Of a stretch of 20,225 bases of DNA, positions 1,017 through 19,261 are shown in pieces. Made by a program: the position numbers and the translations under genes. Origin of the DNA: a virus. The stretch covers positions 1 to 20,225 of IMG/VR virus record IMGVR_UViG_3300046517_001510, one strand, 5' to 3'. The notes under the pieces are model-generated. The model did not search any database. It was not told the DNA's origin and worked only from the letters and a program-made list of their open reading frames with translations. Positions within the stretch are counted from its first letter, which is position 1. Every line of letters begins with the position of its first letter.

Positions 1017-1915
1017 CTGCCCATATTGCGAACGAAGAAGCGGGCGTTGTTCACACCACTGAGCAGAGTAGTGGGAAGGTCCATACCAATCACGGCCACC
1101 CGATCGTCGGAACGCTGCAAGAGGTGGTGGGCACGCTGGCGGCGATCGAGGCGGGCGATACCGCAGCGATCGCCGGACTGGTCGGACTTATTGGCGCGTT
1201 CGCCGCAACGGAAGGCGCCGACGCGGCCGCAATCACAGGATTGGTCGGCCGCTCCGGGACGCTTGCGGCAACGGAAGGCGCTGACACTGCTGCCCTTGCC
1301 GGGCTGGTCTCGGTTACCGGCGCCCTGGCTGCGATCGAGTCGGCAGACGTTGCATCGTTTGACGCGACAGTCGTAACGCTCGGCACGCTGGCGGCGATCG
1401 AGGCCGGCGACACAGCAGCGGCAACCGGCGTTGTTGCGTCGGCCGGCGAAATCATCGGTTCGCTCGCGGCCGGCGAAGGCGGCGACACCGCGGCATTCGC
1501 TGGTGTCGTGCCGGTTCCGGTGGTCGTTGTGGTCGGCGGCGGGGGCTACTATCCGCCAGAGCGGCCGGTCCCGGTCGAGGGCTCCGGTTACGGCATTCTG
1601 CCGCCGCTCGATGGCGAGGCGCATGGCGTCGTGGCTGGCGTCCGCGCCGCAACGCCGGTTCGGATCGAGCCTTGGGCTGTAGCCACCGAATCGGCCGGCA
1701 TTGGTGCGGCGCGGCTATCAATCAACGCGGTGGCGGCCGGCAATCATGGCCGAATCGGCGCCGGGATTGTGATGCTCCGAGCTGGCGCCGTGGGCTCGGG
1801 AGTCATCGGTACGCACGGTAAAGGTTCAGCCATGGTCGCTAATCTCATGGGCACTGGTTCCGGGCAACATGACGACGACGAGGCCGCCGCTGTTGCATGG
1901 ATGTTGGCAGCATGA
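1013..1915 (+). CDS. Repeat-containing phage structural protein (six 21-residue repeats)
   Basis: A 300-residue protein starting in an ATGA overlap. Residues 1-39 form a non-repeated leader with several His (HTNHGHP). Six copies of a repeat of the form G-x-[LF]-A-A-x-E-x-x-D-x-A-A-x-x-G-[LV]-V follow, starting at residues 40, 61, 82, 103, 124 and 149. The first five are exactly 21 residues apart and the last is offset by a 4-residue insertion. Residues 166-195 are a Val/Gly/Pro hinge (VPVPVVVVVGGGGYYPPERP). The C-terminal 100 residues are Ala/Gly/Val rich and end in an acidic HDDDE cluster. Similar Ala/Glu/Asp repeats occur in virion proteins of Rhizobiales prophages (from memory). A fibrous or surface-display role is inferred; there is no enzymatic motif. 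Confidence 0.75.
   Translation: MTAHIANEEAGVVHTTEQSSGKVHTNHGHPIVGTLQEVVGTLAAIEAGDTAAIAGLVGLIGAFAATEGADAAAITGLVGRSGTLAATEGADTAALAGLVSVTGALAAIESADVASFDATVVTLGTLAAIEAGDTAAATGVVASAGEIIGSLAAGEGGDTAAFAGVVPVPVVVVVGGGGYYPPERPVPVEGSGYGILPPLDGEAHGVVAGVRAATPVRIEPWAVATESAGIGAARLSINAVAAGNHGRIGAGIVMLRAGAVGSGVIGTHGKGSAMVANLMGTGSGQHDDDEAAAVAWMLAA
1130..1507 (+). repeat. Intragenic tandem repeat, 63-bp unit, six copies
   Basis: The DNA encodes six copies of the 21-residue repeat. Copies start at 1130, 1193, 1256, 1319, 1382 and 1457, so the first five are spaced exactly 63 bp apart and the sixth is displaced by 12 bp. Units 1 and 5 share an identical 23-bp stretch at 1130-1152 and 1382-1404, while other units have diverged to about the level of the protein consensus. 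Such a pattern fits unit duplication or gene conversion inside the gene. Confidence 0.85.
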
Positions 1916-2649
1916 CCATCCCCGGCCCGGGATATTCGCTGCTTGACGGGCTGGGCACCTGTCTCGCGGTCGCGCAGCGGGCGCTCCTCGAGGTGCGGGC
2001 GCTCGCGCGGATTCCGGGGCCAGAGGGCAAGCGCGGGCCTGCCGGCGAGCGCGGGGAAACCGGCAAAACCGGACCGGCAGGGCCGGCGGGACGCGCCGGC
2101 ATCGATGGCAAGGACGGTGAGCCCGGTCCCCAGGGCAAGCCTGGGGCGCTGCCGGTGGCGCGCGACTGGACACCCGGCATCGTCCACTACGCAGGCACCG
2201 TCGTCGCGCATGCCGGCGCCAGCTTCCAGGCCAGCCGCGATACCGGACAAGCGCCGGGTCACGCGGACTGGATCTGCCTGGCGCGGCCCGGCCGCGATGC
2301 CGCGATGCCAACGGTGCGCGGCACCTTCGCCGAGGGCGAAACCTATGCGGCGCTCGACATCGTCGCGCTCGGCGGCTCGAGCTTCATTGCGCGCCACGAC
2401 GCGCCAGGGGCCTGCCCTGGCAGCGGCTGGCAGCTCATCGCCTCGGCCGGCAAGCCCGGCAAGCCCGGCCCAAAGGGCGATGACGGGGCTCCCGGCGCGC
2501 GTGGCGAACGGGGTTCCACCGGGCCAACCATCGTCGGATGGCGCATCGACCGCGAGGCCTACACGGCACAGCCGGTGATGTCCGATAACAGCAAGGCGCC
2601 GCTTTTGGAGTTGCGTGCGCTGTTCGAACAGTTTCACGAGGCGCGCTGA
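1912..2649 (+). CDS. Collagen-like phage protein with carbohydrate-binding-like modules
   Basis: I chose the ATG at 1912 (ATGA overlap with the preceding stop), giving 245 residues; an in-frame ATG at 1897 is possible. Residues 36-78 hold 15 uninterrupted Gly-X-Y triplets and residues 180-204 nine more, the signature of a trimeric collagen-like helix. Between them are two aromatic modules (about 84-128 and 133-178) with the W..G..Y..G..V.H.G..F.A pattern of small chitin-binding-type (CBM5/12-like) folds. The C-terminus (PLLELRALFEQFHEAR) looks helical and could trimerise or anchor the chain. Collagen-like phage proteins are known as fibre or head-fibre parts. The position between capsid-side genes and the connector suggests a head-attached fibre (inference). 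Confidence 0.8.
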   Translation: MTIPGPGYSLLDGLGTCLAVAQRALLEVRALARIPGPEGKRGPAGERGETGKTGPAGPAGRAGIDGKDGEPGPQGKPGALPVARDWTPGIVHYAGTVVAHAGASFQASRDTGQAPGHADWICLARPGRDAAMPTVRGTFAEGETYAALDIVALGGSSFIARHDAPGACPGSGWQLIASAGKPGKPGPKGDDGAPGARGERGSTGPTIVGWRIDREAYTAQPVMSDNSKAPLLELRALFEQFHEAR

Positions 2650-3296
2650 TGGCCGATGTTTGGGTCAAAGTGCTGACGCCGGCCGATAGCTATGCGCTCG
2701 TCACGTTGGATGAAGTCAAGAGCATCCTTGGCCTGCCGCCGGCCAATACCAGCGAAGACACGCAACTGCAGATGTGGATCGACCAGTACAGCGATGTCAT
2801 CGCGACGATGTGTCAGCGCGTGTTCGCCTACGAGCAGGTCGCCGAAACCTGGCGCGGCGACTCGACGCCATACGACAGCCCGCGCCTGTTTCTGACGCAC
2901 TATCCGGTCGCCGACGCCGACATCGTCTCGGTGGAGTCGCCGCGCGGCAACGTCCTCGACCCGGCGAGTTACGAAATCGAGAACATTTCCGGCAAGCTGC
3001 GCATCGACGGCGCCTGGACCGATCCGGTCACCGTGACCTATAGCGGCGGGTATCTGCTGCCCGACGGCGCGCCGCCGGCGCTCAAGGCGGCGACCACGCT
3101 ATTGATTCAGGCGGCGCGGTTACAGCAGCGCTTGAACGCCACCGGCGGCGTCCGAATGGTCCGGCACGCCGACACGATCGTGCAATATTACGATCCGCTG
3201 CAGGTGCTCGGTAAGGCCGCGCCCACCGCGCCATTGCAGGCGGCGACCGATACCGCCACTGGCTTGCTTAGTGCCTACATGCGCATTTATGTATGA
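2649..3296 (+). CDS. Head-tail connector protein (gp6-like)
   Basis: A 215-residue protein starting in a TGATG overlap. Residues 18-60 (LVTLDEVKSILGLPPANTSEDTQL then MWIDQYSDVIATMC) have the typical start of gp6-like phage connector proteins: a helix-turn-helix layout 'TLDEVKxxLxI...DxxLxxxIxxAxxxIexxxxR'. A mostly beta middle with a YPV motif and a YSGGY strand follows, then a C-terminal helix (APPALKAATTLLIQAARL), also family-typical. Proteins of this family form a ring under the portal and mediate tail attachment. Here it sits ahead of a glycosyltransferase and the other neck proteins. Length is in the normal family range (about 190-220). The next gene begins inside its stop (ATGA). Confidence 0.8.
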   Translation: MADVWVKVLTPADSYALVTLDEVKSILGLPPANTSEDTQLQMWIDQYSDVIATMCQRVFAYEQVAETWRGDSTPYDSPRLFLTHYPVADADIVSVESPRGNVLDPASYEIENISGKLRIDGAWTDPVTVTYSGGYLLPDGAPPALKAATTLLIQAARLQQRLNATGGVRMVRHADTIVQYYDPLQVLGKAAPTAPLQAATDTATGLLSAYMRIYV

Positions 3297-3919
3297 TCGT
3301 CGCGTGTGTGCGCACCGGGACCAAATACGGGCCGGAATACGTCGAGCGGCTGGTCCGCGGCGTCAAACGCCACAGCAGCGTAGAATGCAGGTTCGTGTGT
3401 CTCACCGACCAGCAGGAGACCTGGCCGGGCGTCGAGAACTATCGCGTCGAATTGTCCGGATGGTGGGCCAAGATGGCGCTCTTCAATCCGGATTGGCGGG
3501 GCAATGATCGCTTGGTTTATCTCGACCTCGACACCGTGGTGATTGGCAATATCGATCCGCTGCTCGTGCTGGAGACCGAGTTTGCCATTTGTCACAGCTT
3601 CACACCGGCGCACCTCAAGCGGCCATGCAAATACAGCTCATGCATGATTGCGCTTGCGCCGAATTTCGGCCGCCGGATTTACGATGAGTTCATGGCAAAC
3701 CAATTGGCGCTGATACGAATGTACGTCCGTTATGGCGACCAGCGCGTGATCGAGCATATCGACGACAGCGCCAAGTGTTTGCAAGATCTGTTGCCGCCTG
3801 GATTCTTTTCATATTATCGGGACGGGTTCCAGAAAAACGCTTCGCTGCTGGTCTTCGGCGCCCAAGCAAAACCGCACAATTCCCGCGACGCCTGGGTGAA
3901 AGAGGCATGGGTGTCATGA
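3293..3919 (+). CDS. Glycosyltransferase, GT-A type with DxD motif
   Basis: A 208-residue protein with the layout of a compact nucleotide-sugar glycosyltransferase. It has an N-terminal Rossmann-like strand (MIVACVRTGTKYGPEYVERL), a GWWAKMALF segment at about 56-64, then RLVYLDLDTVVIGNIDPLL with the DLD metal/nucleotide-binding motif at residues 78-80. The distal LLVFGAQAKPHN corresponds to the C-terminal 'vxFhGxxKPH' motif of related enzymes. It should transfer a sugar from a nucleotide donor in the cytoplasm. Acceptor unknown: it could be a virion protein or a host glycan. The gene is locked in the neck operon by ATGA overlaps on both sides, so it is not a loose passenger. No signal peptide or membrane segment is visible. 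Confidence 0.8.
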   Translation: MIVACVRTGTKYGPEYVERLVRGVKRHSSVECRFVCLTDQQETWPGVENYRVELSGWWAKMALFNPDWRGNDRLVYLDLDTVVIGNIDPLLVLETEFAICHSFTPAHLKRPCKYSSCMIALAPNFGRRIYDEFMANQLALIRMYVRYGDQRVIEHIDDSAKCLQDLLPPGFFSYYRDGFQKNASLLVFGAQAKPHNSRDAWVKEAWVS

Positions 3920-4738: not shown

Positions 4739-5266
4739 ATGCCTACGTCACCGAACGTTCAGAACTATCACATCGGCAAAGGCATCGTGTCGTTCAAGGA
4801 AGTCGGCGGCTCGACCTTCACCGACCTCGGCAACGCGCCGAAGTTCATCTACACGCCGACAGTCACCAAAAAAGAGCACTTCTCGTCCCGCGAGGGTATC
4901 AAGACCAAGGACTTCACCGCCATCACCGAGGTCGGCGCGACCATCAAGGTGACGCTGGACGAGATCACCGGGCTCAATCTTGCCTTCTTTGCGCTGGCCG
5001 ATACGGGCACAGACAGCGACGGCAACATCACCCTGAGTGGCCTGTCGAAGGCCGAATTCGTCGGCGACATCAAGGTGGTCGGTACCAACGACGTCGGCCA
5101 GCAGGTCGACTTCCTTGCCACCGTTTCATTCATTCCGTCCGGCGATTTCAGCTTTATCACCGACGCGGACGACTTCACCGTGATCGAGATCGAGGCCGAG
5201 GTGCAGAAGGGGCCGGATGGCGACTTCGGCGTCTGGACGATCCGGGATGACGCCGTGTCGTCGTGA
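4739..5266 (+). CDS. Major tail (tube) protein
   Basis: A 175-residue protein with start ATG 4739, preceded by GAGGA. Tail tube features: N-terminal NVQNYHIGKGIVSFKEVGGS, a TDLGNAPKFIYTPTVTKKEHFSS segment, ITEVGATIKVTLDEITGLNLAFFAL and a C-terminal DFTVIEIEAEVQ strand. This matches the pattern of siphophage tube proteins ('GxGxVxfxxxGxxxFxDLGNxxxf...'). It forms stacked hexameric rings around the tape measure. It lies just before the chaperone genes, the standard order tube - chaperone - tape measure. There is no appended Ig-like domain, so the tail surface is probably plain. Confidence 0.85.
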   Translation: MPTSPNVQNYHIGKGIVSFKEVGGSTFTDLGNAPKFIYTPTVTKKEHFSSREGIKTKDFTAITEVGATIKVTLDEITGLNLAFFALADTGTDSDGNITLSGLSKAEFVGDIKVVGTNDVGQQVDFLATVSFIPSGDFSFITDADDFTVIEIEAEVQKGPDGDFGVWTIRDDAVSS

Positions 5267-5276
5267 GGAGAAAAGC

Positions 5277-5747
5277 ATGGCGGACTTATTGGATATTGCA
5301 CCCTCGACGGCGGTCGAGGTCGTCAAGATCGACGGCCTGCGGGTCAAGGTGCGTGGCGTTTCGGTCGACGCCATCGCATCCATCGTGGCCCGGTTTCCTG
5401 AATTGAAATTGCTGGCCAGCGGCAGCTCGGGCGATAGTTTCCTGCCGCGCCTCATCCAGGGCTGCGGTGCGGCGGTCGGGCCGATCATCGCGGCCGGGTG
5501 CGGCCATCTCGCGAATGAATCTTACGAGCAGCACGCCGCCATGCTGCTGCCCGAGCACCAGATGAAATTCCTCAAGGCCATCTTCGGGCTGACATTCCCA
5601 AACGGAATAGGCTCCTTCGTCGAGGAACTGACGGGCCTCATCGGCGGGGCGGGCGAAGGAGCAAAGCCGGTGAAAATCCGCTTGCGGAAATCGCCCTCGC
5701 CGTCGTCGCCCTCGGACGAAGCGGATTCCCTCCCGACTTTGCAATGA
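5277..5747 (+). CDS. Tail assembly chaperone, first part (gpG-like)
   Basis: The ATG at 5277 is preceded by GAGGAGAAAAGC, a strong ribosome-binding site, giving 156 residues. The body (MADLLDIAPSTAVEVVKIDGLRVKVRGVS, then LPEHQMKFLKAIFGLTFPNGIGSFVEEL) fits the tail assembly chaperone that coats the tape measure before tube assembly. The C-terminal tail after about residue 130 becomes Ser/Pro rich (SPSPSSPSDEADSLP), unlike a fold, as expected when the ribosome normally leaves this frame. The downstream ORF is in the -1 frame and open far upstream, so a G-GT type fusion product is likely. The role follows from order (tube - G - T - tape measure), as in lambda and HK97-like phages. Confidence 0.8.
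   Translation: MADLLDIAPSTAVEVVKIDGLRVKVRGVSVDAIASIVARFPELKLLASGSSGDSFLPRLIQGCGAAVGPIIAAGCGHLANESYEQHAAMLLPEHQMKFLKAIFGLTFPNGIGSFVEELTGLIGGAGEGAKPVKIRLRKSPSPSSPSDEADSLPTLQ
5597..5678 (+). promoter_or_regulatory. Candidate -1 programmed ribosomal frameshift zone
   Basis: Two candidate slip sites lie in the G-like frame. At 5597-5603 there is CCCAAAC with zero-frame codons CCA AAC, a canonical X XXY YYZ heptamer. At 5670-5678 the codons GTG AAA ATC carry an A-run (5673-5676) with a Shine-Dalgarno-like AAGGAG at 5656-5661, 11 bases upstream, which is the distance known to stimulate -1 shifting in bacteria. Between the two sites the zero frame still looks like protein and the -1 frame is Arg-rich shadow. 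From about 5669 on, the -1 frame looks real. That favours the later site although its heptamer is not canonical. Confidence 0.5.
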
Positions 5748-5896
5748 CGCTGACGCCGCGCCAGGTCGCGGCCTATCTCGAGCTCGGCGAGCAGCTCGAC
5801 CGCATGGAGCGGGCGAACGATCTCACCATCGCCGCCATCGCGGCGCAGGGCGATCAGAAGGCGATCGAGAAGACGCTCAAGGAATTGGGCGGATAG
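5744..5896 (+). CDS. Tail assembly chaperone, second part (gpT-like), reached by -1 frameshift
   Basis: From the ATG at 5744 (ATGA overlap with the G-like stop) to TAG 5894-5896 there are 50 codons: MTLTPRQVAAYLELGEQL, then DRMERANDLTIAAIAAQGDQKAIEKTLKELGG. The frame is -1 to the G-like gene and stays open far upstream. Before the ATG it reads NPLAEIALAVVALGRSGFPP then DFA, which looks like real protein and continues smoothly into the ORF. This supports translation mainly as a fusion (G body plus about 75 residues) rather than from the internal ATG. The fused T domain would bind the tube or tape measure during assembly, as gpGT does in lambda. Confidence 0.75.
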   Translation: MTLTPRQVAAYLELGEQLDRMERANDLTIAAIAAQGDQKAIEKTLKELGG

Positions 5897-5901
5897 AACA
5901 A

Positions 5902-6162
5902 TCAGTGCCCGCACCGATGCCCGTCACACTCGATTCTGTCTTTTTCCTTGGCATCTTGTATCGTCTGCCATTGAAGGTTTTTTTGGTCGTTGGTGCCGCC
6001 ATTCCTGAGCGGAATTATGTGGTCAATCACATAATCTCTGCGAGGGCCGGAGGGGGGATTCTCGCGTTCGAACTTCCTCACGGCAGACGACGAACGTCCG
6101 TCAGCAAAAGCCGGCGCTGTAATGCCAGCTATGATGGCCAGCGCCAAAACGAACTTCTTCAT
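5902..6162 (-). CDS. Small exported HNH-type nuclease (moron gene)
   Basis: An 86-residue protein on the reverse strand inside an otherwise forward operon. Residues 1-20 are a clear Sec signal peptide (Lys-Lys, hydrophobic core LALAIIAGI, cleavage after AFA). The mature part carries KFERENPPSG, then YVIDHIIPLRNGG (D47, H48), N62 in KNLQWQT, and AKEKDRIE. This is the pattern of a family of short HNH proteins with 'VIDHxxPLxxGGxxxxxNxQWQTxxxAKxKDRxE', where Lys takes the place of the last His. It ends in CDGHRCGH. The mature protein should act in the periplasm or outside the cell, probably on nucleic acid. It has its own good ribosome-binding site. Base composition is less GC-rich than the neighbours, a sign of separate origin. 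Confidence 0.8.
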   Translation of the reverse strand: MKKFVLALAIIAGITAPAFADGRSSSAVRKFERENPPSGPRRDYVIDHIIPLRNGGTNDQKNLQWQTIQDAKEKDRIECDGHRCGH

Positions 6163-6172
6163 AACAACTTTT

Positions 6173-6180
6173 CCTTCCTT
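6173..6180 (-). promoter_or_regulatory. Ribosome-binding site of the reverse-strand HNH gene
   Basis: Read on the reverse strand this is AAGGAAGG, ten bases before the ATG at 6162. It fixes the start at the signal-peptide Met and shows the gene is translated independently of the forward operon. I could not identify a convincing promoter in the remaining 130 bases up to 6309. Confidence 0.6.
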
Positions 6181-6309
6181 TTGCCGATACGAGCAAGGAG
6201 TTACGGTGGATGCGTTGGCTGGGTTTCATGGGACCAAACGTCTACCCGAGCCGCGCCAATGCCGTCTTGTCATTTCGTGCCACATATTGCTTTTTGACGC
6301 CAAAATGAG

Positions 6310-6846
6310 ATGAAACTCGTCTTTTCGCAGCGGGAATCGGCTGTAGCGCGGCTGATCGAGGAGATCGCGAGCCAGATCGATGCGGCTAGGGCTGGCGCGG
6401 TGCAGGATGCCGCCGCCCTCGCGGTCGCGTTAGGCCGGGAGAACATCGCCTCGGCCGGCTTTCCTGGACTATGGCAGGCGGCGCTGAAGTCGAAGTTCTT
6501 TCCGAACAAGGGCAGCGATCCGGCCGCACTGATCTTTGACACGACGCCGTTTGCCGGCGTGTTTGAAAGCGGCGCCACGATCGCCGGCCATCCGCTGCTG
6601 TGGCTGCCGATCGAGCGGAACCTGCCGGCGGCAGTTCATTCGCCGCGCCAATACGGCCGCAAGCTGGTATCGGTCAACGTCGCCGGCAAGCCGCCATTAC
6701 TGTTCGACGCCGGCAATCGTGCGCTGGGGCCGCTGTTCGTCGGGGTGAAACGGGTCAGCATCCGCAAGCGGTTCGATCTCTATCGCATCTTTGCCCAGGT
6801 GGCTGCGCGCATGACCGAATTCTACGAGCGACGGATCAAGGGCTGA
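6310..6846 (+). CDS. Phage neck/tail-completion-like protein (possibly DUF6441)
   Basis: A 178-residue protein. It begins with a helical N-terminus (ARLIEEIASQIDAARAGAVQDAAALAVALG), followed by a GFPGLWQAALKSKFFPNKG segment, an FESGATIAGHPLLWLPIE strand pair, PRQYGRKLVSV, and a C-terminal helix (YRIFAQVAARMTEFYERRIKG). The layout helix - 'FxxGATIxxxxxxxLxIPxxxxLP' - 'LxxVxxRxRxDxxxxxxxxAxxxxxFY' resembles a phage family that I believe is DUF6441, found next to tape measure genes and thought to help join tail parts. The family name is from memory. It directly precedes the tape measure gene. The ribosome-binding site is weak, perhaps because the HNH gene was inserted just upstream. Confidence 0.65.
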   Translation: MKLVFSQRESAVARLIEEIASQIDAARAGAVQDAAALAVALGRENIASAGFPGLWQAALKSKFFPNKGSDPAALIFDTTPFAGVFESGATIAGHPLLWLPIERNLPAAVHSPRQYGRKLVSVNVAGKPPLLFDAGNRALGPLFVGVKRVSIRKRFDLYRIFAQVAARMTEFYERRIKG

Positions 6847-6852
6847 TCATCG

Positions 6853-9663
6853 ATGGCCAGCAAGACGATAAGCCAGCGCATCACCCTCGAAGGTGGCGAT
6901 GACATCAAGAAGCAGTTGGAAGACCTTGGCAGGGCCGGCGAGGCCTCCTTCAAGCAGATCCAGGACGCCGCCGAGAAGACCAAGATCGATCCGGCACGCA
7001 TCGATCAAACCAAGCAGGCATTCAACAATCTTAGCACCGCCGGTGCGCAACTGGGGAATCAATTCAAGGCGCTCACCGAAAGCGTCGCAGGTTTTGCCAG
7101 CCAAGGGACCACGTCGGCCTTGGATGTCGCATCCGGATTGCAGAAGACCACCGCGGCGGCGCAGCAGGTCGGCAGCGCGTTCGTGCAAGCCAACCAGCAG
7201 ATCAGCACGTCCGCAGAATCCGCCGGGGCCAAGCTTATTTCGGCCGCCACCGCTTTCAAACTCGCCGCCGCCGGCATTGTGGCCGCCGTCTTGGCGATCA
7301 CGACATCACTGACCAAGGGTGCGGTCGAGAGTGGCGCCGCGCTGGCCGATCAGGCCGAGAAGTTGCATATCACGACCGCGGAATGGTTGAAACTGCGCGA
7401 GGCGCTCGTCGGCTCGTCCATATCGAGCGACGATTTTGCAAAATCATTATCCAAAATTTCCCAAATGGCGAAGGATGCGAAAGAGGGGATTGTTCAGCTC
7501 AGGGACGGAGTCACCGAAGAGACGAAAAAGGTCGGCGACAACATCGTCACCATCATTCGGATGAACGATACGCTTAGCGATACGAGCAAAAAGTCCAGCG
7601 AAGCCGCGCAGACGCTGCGCCAACTCGGCATCAGTTGGCAGACCATTCTAAGCGGCAACACGCTTGAAATCATGCGACAGGCCGCGATCGCCATCAATAA
7701 TATGAAGGATGCCGCGAAGCAGGCCGAGCTCGGTGTGAAACTCTTTGGCGATAACTGGAAAGAAGCCATCAAGATTCTAACCTCAACTACAAAACCCATT
7801 GACGAAACGGGCAAGTCGTTGTCGGAGCTCGGCAAGCTGCACCGCGATATGTCGGCCAACTCGGCCAATCTTGCTAAAGAGCTTAAAAAGGCGTGGGAGG
7901 ATCTGAGCGGCGCGATCGGGGCCACAAAAAACCTGATCGGCTCGCTGTTTCTGGGTGCCAATTTGACGAAGGCAAAATGGCTGACGGATATGGTCGACGG
8001 CGCGACCGAGCTGTTGCGCATGTTTCTCAGGTTGAACGAGGAGTCGAAAAAGGGTTTCCTGGCTGGGCTCGCCGACACGCCGGCCGCTACTCTATTCAAG
8101 TTTCTGATCGATGTAGGCAACCAACTCGCTGGCCTTTGGAACGATCTCCTGGTGCCGGCGGGCGAGGCGCTCGTGGGTATCGTCAAGCAGATCGCCGCGA
8201 ATTTCGAGGGCGTCACGAAAAGCCAGGTTGCGGCGTTCTTCATAGCGGCGGCAGTCGCTGCGGTCGCTCTTGCAGTTGCATTCAAAGGCATCGGCCTGGT
8301 GCTGTCGCCGTTCACGGCGTTGATTTCGCTGTTTGTTGGTTTTGGCCCGATCCTGATCCCGCTCGTTGCGCTGGTGGTGCTGTTCTGGGATCAGATAAAG
8401 GAGGGAGCAAAGACGGCGGCGGCGTTGATCCCCGGCGCGCTGGCGCAAATTGGGCAATCGTTCAAGCTTTTATTATCCGGTGATTTTGCGGGATTTTGGA
8501 CTCAATTCAGTGAAGCCGCGCTCACCGCATTCGACACCATCAAGCAGGCGATCTTAAATATTCCGTGGGCGGCGGAACTAGTTGCTACCCTCAAGGACAT
8601 CGGCAAGGATCTGCCCGCAACGATTTTGCTCATCGTGGCCGCTTTCCTGGCTCTGCATAAAGCGGCCAGCCTGGTGGCGCCCGTTATCAGCCGTATGTTC
8701 GGGGTGGAGATTACTGGCAGCGGCCTAATTCTATTGGGACTGCTCGGATCGATGACAAGCGCATTTACAGCATTGTCAGCGGTGGTTACCATTTTAAGTG
8801 TGTCGTTGTTCGCTCTATTCAATGCGTTGAGATTGGTTGGATTGCTGTGGGGCTTCATTCAGGCCGGGGCTCTCGCTTTCGGCGCAAGCGCCGGGGCGGC
8901 GTTTGTTATTGCCACTTCGGCAATCCTGGCCATCATCGCCGCGCTGGTCCTGCTCTACAGCTACTGGCCGCAAATTAAACAGGCGGCGATCGATGCCGCC
9001 GATGCGATCGCGGCCAAATGGCAGGAGCTCAAGGCATTGTTTGATGCCTGGGTCACGACACCGGTCGGCAATGCGTGGCAATGGATCGTCGATTCGTTCA
9101 ATGAGGTTGTGAGCTCGCTCAACGCGGCGATAGATCAAGCCATAGCCCTCATTACCTCCTGGGTGACGACGCCGGTGGCCAATGCGTTCCAGTGGATCAA
9201 AGATACGTTCAACAGCGTCTTAGGTGCTCTAGGGTTCGGCGGCGCGTCGTCGAGCGGCGGCGGCGGCAGCGGTTTTGCGGGTGGCGGACTACTCGGCGGT
9301 CGCGGCAGCGGCACCTCCGACAGCAATCTCGCGTGGGTCTCGCGCGGTGAGTACATCACGCCGGCGCGCGCCGTGAGTCAGCCGGGCGTTCTGGCCTTCC
9401 TCGAGGCGCTGCGGCGCTCGGGCGGCAATCTGCGCGATGTGCTCGACGGCATGGGCCGCTTCGCGCTCGGCGGCATGGTGCAGGCGCCGCTTGCGCTTCC
9501 GGCCTTCGCCGGGGCTGGTATGAATCACGTCACCATCCAGTTCCCTGGATTGCCGGCCATAACCGGGTTGCGCGCCTCGTCCGATGTGGTCGATGAACTT
9601 CACAAGGCCGCGGCCATGGCGCAAGTGCGCTCGGGCGGGCGCAAGCCCAGCCGGTTTTCCTGA
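6853..9663 (+). CDS. Tail tape measure protein
   Basis: The longest gene in the window, 936 residues. The N-terminus (TLEGGDDIKKQLEDLGRAGE) and the following 120 residues are Ala/Gln/Lys rich and helical. Hydrophobic segments lie at about 137-152, 455-510 and 586-705, with amphipathic helices between. Residues 795-815 are Gly/Ser rich, followed by SNLAWVSRGEYITPARAV, a typical C-terminal motif of tape measures of alphaproteobacterial siphophages. A 37-residue near-repeat beginning WVTTPV occurs twice just before the Gly-rich part. The protein sets tail length and may help DNA cross the host membranes. At the usual ~0.15 nm per residue the tail would be roughly 140 nm (inference). It overlaps the next gene by one base (TGATG). 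Confidence 0.9.
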   Translation: MASKTISQRITLEGGDDIKKQLEDLGRAGEASFKQIQDAAEKTKIDPARIDQTKQAFNNLSTAGAQLGNQFKALTESVAGFASQGTTSALDVASGLQKTTAAAQQVGSAFVQANQQISTSAESAGAKLISAATAFKLAAAGIVAAVLAITTSLTKGAVESGAALADQAEKLHITTAEWLKLREALVGSSISSDDFAKSLSKISQMAKDAKEGIVQLRDGVTEETKKVGDNIVTIIRMNDTLSDTSKKSSEAAQTLRQLGISWQTILSGNTLEIMRQAAIAINNMKDAAKQAELGVKLFGDNWKEAIKILTSTTKPIDETGKSLSELGKLHRDMSANSANLAKELKKAWEDLSGAIGATKNLIGSLFLGANLTKAKWLTDMVDGATELLRMFLRLNEESKKGFLAGLADTPAATLFKFLIDVGNQLAGLWNDLLVPAGEALVGIVKQIAANFEGVTKSQVAAFFIAAAVAAVALAVAFKGIGLVLSPFTALISLFVGFGPILIPLVALVVLFWDQIKEGAKTAAALIPGALAQIGQSFKLLLSGDFAGFWTQFSEAALTAFDTIKQAILNIPWAAELVATLKDIGKDLPATILLIVAAFLALHKAASLVAPVISRMFGVEITGSGLILLGLLGSMTSAFTALSAVVTILSVSLFALFNALRLVGLLWGFIQAGALAFGASAGAAFVIATSAILAIIAALVLLYSYWPQIKQAAIDAADAIAAKWQELKALFDAWVTTPVGNAWQWIVDSFNEVVSSLNAAIDQAIALITSWVTTPVANAFQWIKDTFNSVLGALGFGGASSSGGGGSGFAGGGLLGGRGSGTSDSNLAWVSRGEYITPARAVSQPGVLAFLEALRRSGGNLRDVLDGMGRFALGGMVQAPLALPAFAGAGMNHVTIQFPGLPAITGLRASSDVVDELHKAAAMAQVRSGGRKPSRFS

Positions 9664-18364: not shown

Positions 18365-18388
18365 GCCCCGCCTTGCGGGGCTTTTTTT
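18365..18388 (+). terminator. Rho-independent terminator after the endolysin gene
   Basis: GCCCCGC (18365-18371), a CTT loop and GCGGGGC (18375-18381) form a perfect 7-bp GC stem, followed by seven T (18382-18388). This is a textbook terminator on the forward strand, ending the late operon. The reverse-strand LuxR-type gene ends within the T tract. Confidence 0.9.
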
Positions 18389-18671
18389 ATTTCTTCGGCT
18401 TGGAATTCCGGTGGTTGTTCAGCAGCCCTTTCCATATGGCGATCGCGACGGCATTGGGCCGGTTGGTGGCTCCGAGATGTTTTTTAATGCGCTCGATATG
18501 ATCGAGGACGGTGGTCTCGGACACGCCGAGTTCGCGAGCGATGCTCTTGGCCGTTTTGCCGTTTGCGATGAGGCACAGGACACGCCGTTGGCGTGCTGTC
18601 AGTTTCATCGAAGGAGGGCGCGCGCGCTTTGGTCTATGGGGCATTGCAACCCCATCGTACCGTTCGAACAT
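18387..18671 (-). CDS. Stand-alone LuxR-type helix-turn-helix regulator
   Basis: A 94-residue protein from ATG 18671; an in-frame ATG at 18644 (85 residues, with GGGG just upstream) is an equally good start. The body is a LuxR/GerE-type DNA-binding domain: KLTARQRRVLCLIANGKTAK, SIARELGVSETTVLDHIERI and KKHLGATNRPNAVAIAIW, with the typical 'LTxRExxVLxLxAxGxsxKxIAxxLxxSxxTVxxHxxxIxxKLG' spacing. There is no receiver, PAS or ligand-binding domain, so it is a free HTH module. It runs against the lysis operon and towards its terminator. It may regulate lysogeny or late genes. An 18-bp palindrome lies just upstream. Confidence 0.8.
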   Translation of the reverse strand: MFERYDGVAMPHRPKRARPPSMKLTARQRRVLCLIANGKTAKSIARELGVSETTVLDHIERIKKHLGATNRPNAVAIAIWKGLLNNHRNSKPKK

Positions 18672-18801: not shown

Positions 18802-18918
18802 GTGAGTCATATAGCTACACGTTTTGGTGGCAATGAGTGTCATCCTGGCTTCATATTGGATCGGGGCGATAACGACGGCCGGGAGAGAAATACTGGGGAT
18901 CAATCACACGCAACTTAA
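18802..18918 (+). CDS. Possible 38-residue leader ORF before the XRE-type regulator
   Basis: A GTG at 18802 is preceded by AGAGGAAAC, a fair ribosome-binding site. The frame runs 38 codons to TAA 18916-18918, three bases before the AAGAGGAG ribosome-binding site of the next gene. The peptide is polar (SHIATRFGGNECHPGFILDR and onwards), with no recognisable domain. Its place suggests a leader peptide or a small accessory gene, but it may be chance. Confidence 0.3.
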   Translation: MSHIATRFGGNECHPGFILDRGDNDGRERNTGDQSHAT

Positions 18919-18937
18919 CTCAAGAGGAGCGACGGTG

Positions 18938-19261
18938 ATGGACCAGGTAATCAGCAGAAGACAGGTTCTCGGCAAGCGGATTAAGCAGATTCGCGAGCAT
19001 CGCTTCATGACGCAGGCCGCGCTCGGCCAGGCGATCGGGTTCAGCAAGCACGCCATCTACCGTATGGAGAGGGGTGATAGGTGGATCACGGTCGAGGTGC
19101 TTGAGCTGCTGGCGCGCGCGCTGCGCTGCAAAATGAAGGACTTGCGCGTGGACCCGGCGGAGGCTGGCCCGCCGCTCGTGCGGGCGACGCCCATGCCGCG
19201 CATCCGGCCGAAGCTGTGGGGGGATCATGCCACAGCGCGACCACCCGACGACCAGAGCTGA
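18938..19261 (+). CDS. XRE-family helix-turn-helix regulator
   Basis: The ATG at 18938 is chosen because AAGAGGAG lies upstream; earlier in-frame codons do not look like protein. The 107-residue product has an HTH_3 domain at about residues 11-70: LGKRIKQIREHRFMTQAALG, QAIGFSKHAIYRMERGDRWI and TVEVLELLARALRCKMKDLR. The pattern 'RIKxxRxxxxxTQxxLAxxxGxSxxxIxrxExGxxxxxxxxLxxlAxaL' is clear. The C-terminal 35 residues are Pro/Arg rich and not part of the domain, so it lacks the RecA-cleavable or peptidase half of CI-type repressors. A lysogeny or accessory regulator is likely. It overlaps the next small ORF by 35 bases. Confidence 0.8.
   Translation: MDQVISRRQVLGKRIKQIREHRFMTQAALGQAIGFSKHAIYRMERGDRWITVEVLELLARALRCKMKDLRVDPAEAGPPLVRATPMPRIRPKLWGDHATARPPDDQS

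Follow-up and report, generated by a model that had tools for sequence, protein, structure and literature searches.

A slot in a phage tail operon carries exchangeable genes for putative exported proteins, including an HNH-type protein

In a group of related phages, one position in the tail operon is either closed or filled with one of many alternative genes that run against the operon, each with the marks of an exported or membrane protein and all placed behind one common tandem repeat. The DNA analysed here (hereafter the window) is a virus fragment of 20,225 bases from IMG/VR, and its slot holds a small gene for an HNH-type protein with a signal peptide. The comparisons suggest that this cassette spot is swappable and changes the host-cell envelope, possibly in a way that keeps rival phages out; the HNH form probably serves as a nuclease in the periplasm that attacks incoming DNA. 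An earlier note on this DNA had described a backward-facing phage cargo gene for an exported nuclease. Its interpretation is partly supported and appears correct in outline, and the many alternative exported proteins behind a common element go beyond it. Phage morons are a known kind of gene; what appears to be new, on a reading of the sequences, is that the slot is fixed, that it comes with a tandem repeat and that its cargoes are consistently predicted to be exported.

A variable slot between two tail genes

The slot and the tail genes around it are as follows.

5265-5747, plus strand: pre-tape-measure or tail assembly chaperone-like gene (Pfam PF23789, Pre_tape_measure, E 4.4e-10)
5744-5896, plus strand: tail-operon ORF of 50 aa that overlaps the chaperone gene and forms the left slot border (phrog_13355, unknown function, E 3.6e-12)
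5897-6309, no strand assigned: entire inserted slot; the flanking genes abut in relatives without the insert
6310-6846, plus strand: DUF6441 tail-operon gene, right slot border (Pfam PF20039, E 4e-8)
6853-9663, plus strand: tail tape measure protein gene (phrog_3547, E 1.7e-12)

The DUF6441 and chaperone genes served as baits and retrieved 108 related loci. The slot is closed in 46 of them, where the 50-aa ORF and the DUF6441 gene abut within 17 bases; the other loci have a gap of about 300-655 bases, with the exception of one locus (L096, 72 bases) and a few truncated loci. Filled slots occur in 58 loci (L147 counted in) and represent 17 cassette types, which are the better count because many loci are overlapping or duplicate contigs and not independent events. 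Two marks of a moron are found here in addition to carriage by a probably temperate phage group: some phages carry the insert while relatives lack it at this position, and its base composition is unlike that of the flanks (GC content is 53.6% for the HNH gene and 52.1% for the slot, compared to 60.6% for the window). The phage cargo that the earlier note had proposed is supported, and it is moron-like.

That note had also placed the gene between the chaperone and the next tail gene. The gene does lie inside the tail operon, on the minus strand against plus-strand late transcription as had been claimed; its left neighbour, however, is the ORF at 5744-5896, while the true chaperone-like gene is at 5265-5747. 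Likewise, the reported distance of five bases is right, and it separates the HNH stop codon (5902-5904) from the stop of this 50-aa ORF and not from that of the chaperone gene. The span 5902-6309 that had been assigned to the gene divides into the gene proper (5902-6162) and an intergenic remainder that holds the tandem repeat.

A tandem repeat upstream of the cargoes

6267-6302, minus strand: tandem direct repeat TGGCGTCAAAAAGCAA-4-TGGCACGAAATGACAA, presumed cassette promoter/operator; found in 22/22 filled regions

The two copies in the window (6267-6282 and 6287-6302) are examples of a 16-base, TGGCACGAAnnAnCAA-like motif that occurs twice with a period of 20-21 bp, i.e., two helical turns. 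The doublet lies on the cassette strand just upstream of the DUF6441 start in all 22 distinct filled-slot upstream regions and is absent from closed slots. When the entire viral collection was scanned for the repeat, 44 stretches were returned; all those with tail genes have the repeat at the slot, and the remaining stretches, which lack tail genes, are unrelated sequences. Among the former is L147, a further phage at greater distance from the others, whose cargo is of another type and also predicted to be exported. Two kinds of match were set aside: the L133-type match (TGGCACCCTATAACAA...) is without tail genes and resembles a recurring sequence unrelated to the repeat, and tail genes are missing from L146 too.

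From its position and exclusivity, we infer that the repeat acts as a promoter or operator. A regulon of many sites was rejected, as seven long phage contigs hold one doublet each. No consensus sigma-70 promoter was found for the cassette. A sigma-54 promoter was also rejected: TGGCACG agrees with the -24 half, but the GC lies closer to it than it should by one base, and most second copies lack this GC. The search for a cassette terminator gave one terminator-like hairpin, which is at chance level, and the repeat has no Rfam match.

Alternative cargoes and their exchange

In 17 of 17 cassette types, an ORF with an N-terminal hydrophobic segment runs against the tail operon. The same mark, which is a measure of hydrophobicity rather than the output of a trained signal-peptide predictor, appears in 3.9% of dinucleotide shuffles of these slots and in 3/14 on the other strand. 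Cargoes include proteins with signal peptides (e.g., L034, L032, L076, L106 and L147), with lipobox-like signals (L026 and L028) and short membrane proteins (L052, L111 and L047). One type has a C-terminal motif common to phrog_14503, a 'membrane associated protein' of the moron category, and another matches phrog_14275 (unknown function); the remaining types tested gave no convincing family match. Non-HNH cargo genes have pN < pS, as genes for real proteins do. From the signal peptide of the HNH protein and the hydrophobic N-terminus in all 17 cargo types, the cargoes are predicted to have the envelope location of superinfection exclusion proteins. In one locus (L038:2618-2914, minus strand), an out-of-frame KFLCWIWGI signal-peptide remnant lies upstream of a membrane-protein ORF; it resembles the signal peptide of other cassettes, which suggests that an older cargo was replaced.

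5899-6165, minus strand: segment swapped between diverged phages (98-100% identity; left flank about 80-89%, right flank about 82% or less)

Cargo exchange is evident at two levels. Between the window and six more distant relatives (L024, L044, L061, L062, L019 and L011), the HNH gene has a dS of 0-0.06, while neighbouring genes have a dS of 0.19-1.03, with the exception of the right flank of L019, which is identical. In several relatives, the high identity ends abruptly, at 5899 and close to the start codon. In two near-identical phages (L099 and L100), the flanks beside the slot are about 99% identical and the first 176 cassette bases, which cover the element, the leader and the first part of the signal peptide, are identical, after which the mature domains are unrelated. 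Together, these patterns indicate that both whole cassettes and payloads behind a common signal peptide are exchanged. Since pairwise comparison of the other cargo types reveals no clear recent spread of this kind, the HNH form has spread recently, whether through selection, its own activity or chance. L002, which is 100% identical on one side of a common gene and 80% on the other, could be an assembly chimera and is never the sole support for a claim.

The HNH-type protein and its family

The gene in the window has the following parts.

5902-6162, minus strand: gene for an HNH-type exported protein of 86 aa (ATG start; stop codon counted in)
6172-6180, minus strand: ribosome-binding site AAGGAAGGA, seen in the sequence; present as AGGAAGGAG in L013/L061
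6103-6162, minus strand: signal peptide, residues 1-20 MKKFVLALAIIAGITAPAFA, with an AFA|DG site, from direct reading of the sequence
6019-6024, minus strand: D47-H48, first part of the HNH core, invariant in 62/62 homologues
5977-5979, minus strand: N62 of the HNH core, invariant in 62/62 homologues
5938-5943, minus strand: K74-D75 at the place of the usual last His/Asn, invariant in 62/62 homologues

A complete reverse-strand gene with a signal peptide, a strong ribosome-binding site and lower GC content, as first described, is borne out by this 86-aa ORF, its AAGGAAGGA site and the GC values of 53.6% and 60.6%. The Sec signal MKKFVLALAIIAGITAPAFA|DG is of the textbook type; read by eye, the A-x-A|D site places cleavage after A20 and leaves a mature protein of 66 residues (21-86). 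Thirteen other contigs keep the gene. Several relatives have 55-65 extra bases after the HNH stop, which are absent in the window and its nearest relatives (5899-5904).

A scan seeded with two distant homologues confirmed 155 HNH relatives in viral contigs; the loci of 80 of these were kept and 62 distinct ones from outside the window's phage group were aligned. The family has ten invariant columns. D47, H48, N62, Q64, K74 and D75 are invariant, and R23, F31 and E78 are nearly so. A strongly hydrophobic stretch precedes the HNH core in 60 of the 62 homologues, and the other two are ORFs with an unrecovered N-terminus. The Asp/His pair of the first strand and the Asn of the loop, which had been reported as D47-H48 and N62, are seen in the sequence, as is K74 where the last His is expected; the final-helix His or Asn of HNH proteins is absent and K74-D75 stands in its place. 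This Lys is not a lost catalytic residue: because K74-D75 is invariant in all 62 viral homologues, it is a property of the family and not decay.

The protein scores 20.4 bits against the Pfam HNH profile PF01844, just under the gathering cut-off of 21.4. In a structure model from 46 sequences, residues 25-34 form a helix, 44-48 and 63-67 form strands and 68-81 form a second helix, with pLDDT of about 77-93 for the core blocks; the model contains the expected strand-strand-helix, or beta-beta-alpha, nuclease core. Its best fold matches are HNH nucleases, with Cas8f-HNH first, at probabilities of 0.85-1.00 and with weak E-values (none better than 0.08), which is not surprising for a domain of only 66 residues. 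Cas8f-HNH proteins are also first in a sequence-profile search (E 7e-4). The PF01844 and Cas8f-HNH domains (8ydb and 9sjn) have the same DH...GG...N core and beta-beta-alpha arrangement; the window protein differs in its Lys-Asp at the third His/Asn position and in being stand-alone, with a 66-residue mature form that is predicted to be exported. Pfam and PHROG searches revealed no further domain in the 86 residues, and neither an NCBIfam family nor a PADLOC defence model covers the protein or its family.

Relatives occupy varied genomic places, such as between terminase and portal genes (L216) or beside a repressor (L246). Within the related phages the gene occurs in the same slot each time, while relatives outside the group sit elsewhere. 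Homologues that were chromosomal housekeeping genes would have spoken against a phage cargo, but this is not the case: compared to the 155 viral relatives, HNH matches occur in 2 of 337 bacterial genomes in a sample of one class, that of an Aminobacter genome. A chromosomal Aminobacter relative was rejected, as its match is limited to the signal peptide of an otherwise different protein. The 'hnhc' protein of phage ctDrO704, a protein on Polaromonas plasmid pW9NP1 and small, unannotated HNH proteins with export signals from other phages belong to the same family, with a common signature of a signal peptide followed by R...F...YVIDH..PL..GG.D...N(M/L)QWQT...K.KD..E. Most relatives have a conserved Cys pair (PCP...CPG) around the loop before the HNH core, whereas the window protein is without it, and their genome positions differ from that in the window. 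The plasmid homologue (L016:2875-3216, plus strand) lies where the PLSDB table lists no gene.

Comparison with known systems

In Pseudomonas phage JBD26, the moron Tab has its own promoter and is encoded within the late operon on the minus strand (PMC10884400). Like the window gene, it is small, prophage-carried and present only in some phages. It differs in lying between terminase genes and in acting on the tape measure protein during tail assembly (PMC10884400), whereas the cargo here is predicted to be exported and has an HNH core, and many unrelated cargoes use the slot. A gene of prophage ST64B that is antisense to lytic genes also has its own promoter (PMC7067206). The superinfection exclusion proteins HK97 gp15, TP-J34 Ltp and P22 SieA reside in the envelope and prevent DNA from being injected (discussed in PMC10883804). 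Like the predicted cargoes, they are prophage-encoded envelope proteins, and SieA also exists in very different types; they block injection without the involvement of a nuclease, and no sequence relation was found between them and the slot cargoes. SNIPE cuts phage DNA at injection (PMC13190303) and thus resembles the predicted HNH protein as an envelope-placed nuclease that strikes DNA during injection. It differs in having a transmembrane segment, DUF4041 and a cytoplasm-facing GIY-YIG nuclease (PMC13190303), compared to the free exported HNH protein predicted here; the window protein is only 86 aa long and has no Pfam match to these SNIPE parts.

Proposed function and alternatives

The reading preferred here, to which we give an even chance, is that the HNH gene is a moron-slot cargo that is transcribed from the prophage and encodes a periplasmic nuclease that protects the lysogen from incoming DNA. 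Transcription of the cargo in the prophage, against the late genes, would start from the repeat as its control region. The 66-residue mature protein would fold as a minimal metal-dependent nuclease of the beta-beta-alpha type and, in the periplasm, would cut DNA that crosses or is stranded there. The lysogen, and hence the prophage, would be shielded from superinfecting phages or other incoming DNA. Host DNA would be spared in the cytoplasm, and no immunity gene should be needed for this reason. In long-tailed phages, the tape-measure conduit may shield DNA across the periplasm. Given this shielding and the cytoplasmic-side action of SNIPE, injected DNA may be largely out of reach of a free nuclease in the periplasm; because conduits may hide DNA there, the target of the enzyme might instead be stranded phage DNA or DNA that enters by transformation or conjugation.

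A broader proposal, which we hold more tentatively, is that the slot is a dedicated export-cassette locus with one control element and interchangeable envelope-acting payloads that are swapped within the group, in some lineages behind one signal peptide common to the payloads. Each payload, be it a nuclease, lipoprotein or membrane protein, would then be an envelope-acting weapon or shield. Most phage morons turn up singly; this slot is recognizable from the two genes at its borders together with a repeat of about 36 bp, and so far all of its payloads look exported, which makes it a search handle for envelope-acting prophage genes. The L099/L100 payload swap is a natural experiment on payload function. 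If the slot is such a locus, it offers a ready catalogue of phage-exclusion proteins, including a new class of periplasmic nuclease; if the HNH form cuts incoming DNA in the periplasm, a prophage-borne extracytoplasmic nuclease joins the systems that discriminate self from foreign DNA by location.

Two other roles for the same kind of enzyme are unlikely to a similar degree. In the first, a secreted nuclease would benefit the host outside defence by converting extracellular DNA to phosphate or nucleotides, or by loosening biofilms. The export signal, the small nuclease domain and the Cys pair of most homologues, which suits extracytoplasmic life, would fit this role, but the other slot cargoes do not resemble nucleases, and probable lipoproteins and membrane-spanning proteins are among them, which argues for an envelope role rather than a feeding role. 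In the second, the enzyme would be a general barrier to DNA uptake by transformation or conjugation, with phage exclusion as a side effect. Naked or single-stranded DNA that crosses the periplasm during uptake would be more exposed than injected phage DNA; nevertheless, the variety of cargoes in the slot seems to fit phage-phage conflict better.

Less probable still is a free-standing homing endonuclease, in which the HNH protein would cut the slot in phages without the gene and repair would copy the gene across. Such copying would explain the near-identity of the HNH gene in diverged phages: the slot is constant each time, the junctions are sharp, the gene is almost identical across diverged backbones and the other cargo types, in the pairs tested, show no clear recent spread of this kind. 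However, the signal peptide, judged from its A-x-A site and the hydrophobic N-terminus of 60/62 homologues, would remove the enzyme from cytoplasmic DNA. Moreover, the 66 residues hold no DNA-recognition domain, homologues elsewhere are exported too and lie at different places, and cargo types that are not nucleases also occupy this slot and are exchanged there. A nuclease made late and released at lysis, which would degrade host DNA or lower viscosity, would suit the late-region location and the Sec signal and is very improbable for a gene that lies opposite the late genes, so that late transcription is antisense to it. A chance ORF or dead gene, to which the Pfam score just under the cut-off might point, can practically be dismissed, as it is already contradicted by a conserved family with invariant residues, 13 contigs that keep the gene, a good ribosome-binding site, a signal peptide and a confident core fold.

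The phage group and other variable regions

Tyrosine integrases occur in 13 of 17 related records, including two with the HNH gene, and thus indicate a probably temperate, dormancy-capable group of long-tailed phages; the window, itself a fragment, is without an integrase. At a threshold of E 1e-5, neither the chaperone nor the tape measure protein has a match among the cultured phages of the collection. A remote DUF6441 relative occurs in two genomes of the Aminobacter order.

A second variable slot follows the head-tail adaptor gene, where the window has a glycosyltransferase-like gene (GT8, weak E of 0.039; 3293-3919, plus strand). The match between the window and L004 and other relatives breaks at this position; L004 has about 2.1 kb there instead (L004:8307-10455), with methyltransferase-like and glycosyltransferase-like ORFs identified by eye. 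Two further regions of the window can be mentioned. Near the amidase gene are LuxR-type-like and XRE-type-like helix-turn-helix ORFs, again recognized by eye (18387-18671, minus strand, and 18824-19261, plus strand). An ORF at 1897-2649 (plus strand) has collagen-like Gly-x-x repeats and possibly encodes a fibre protein.
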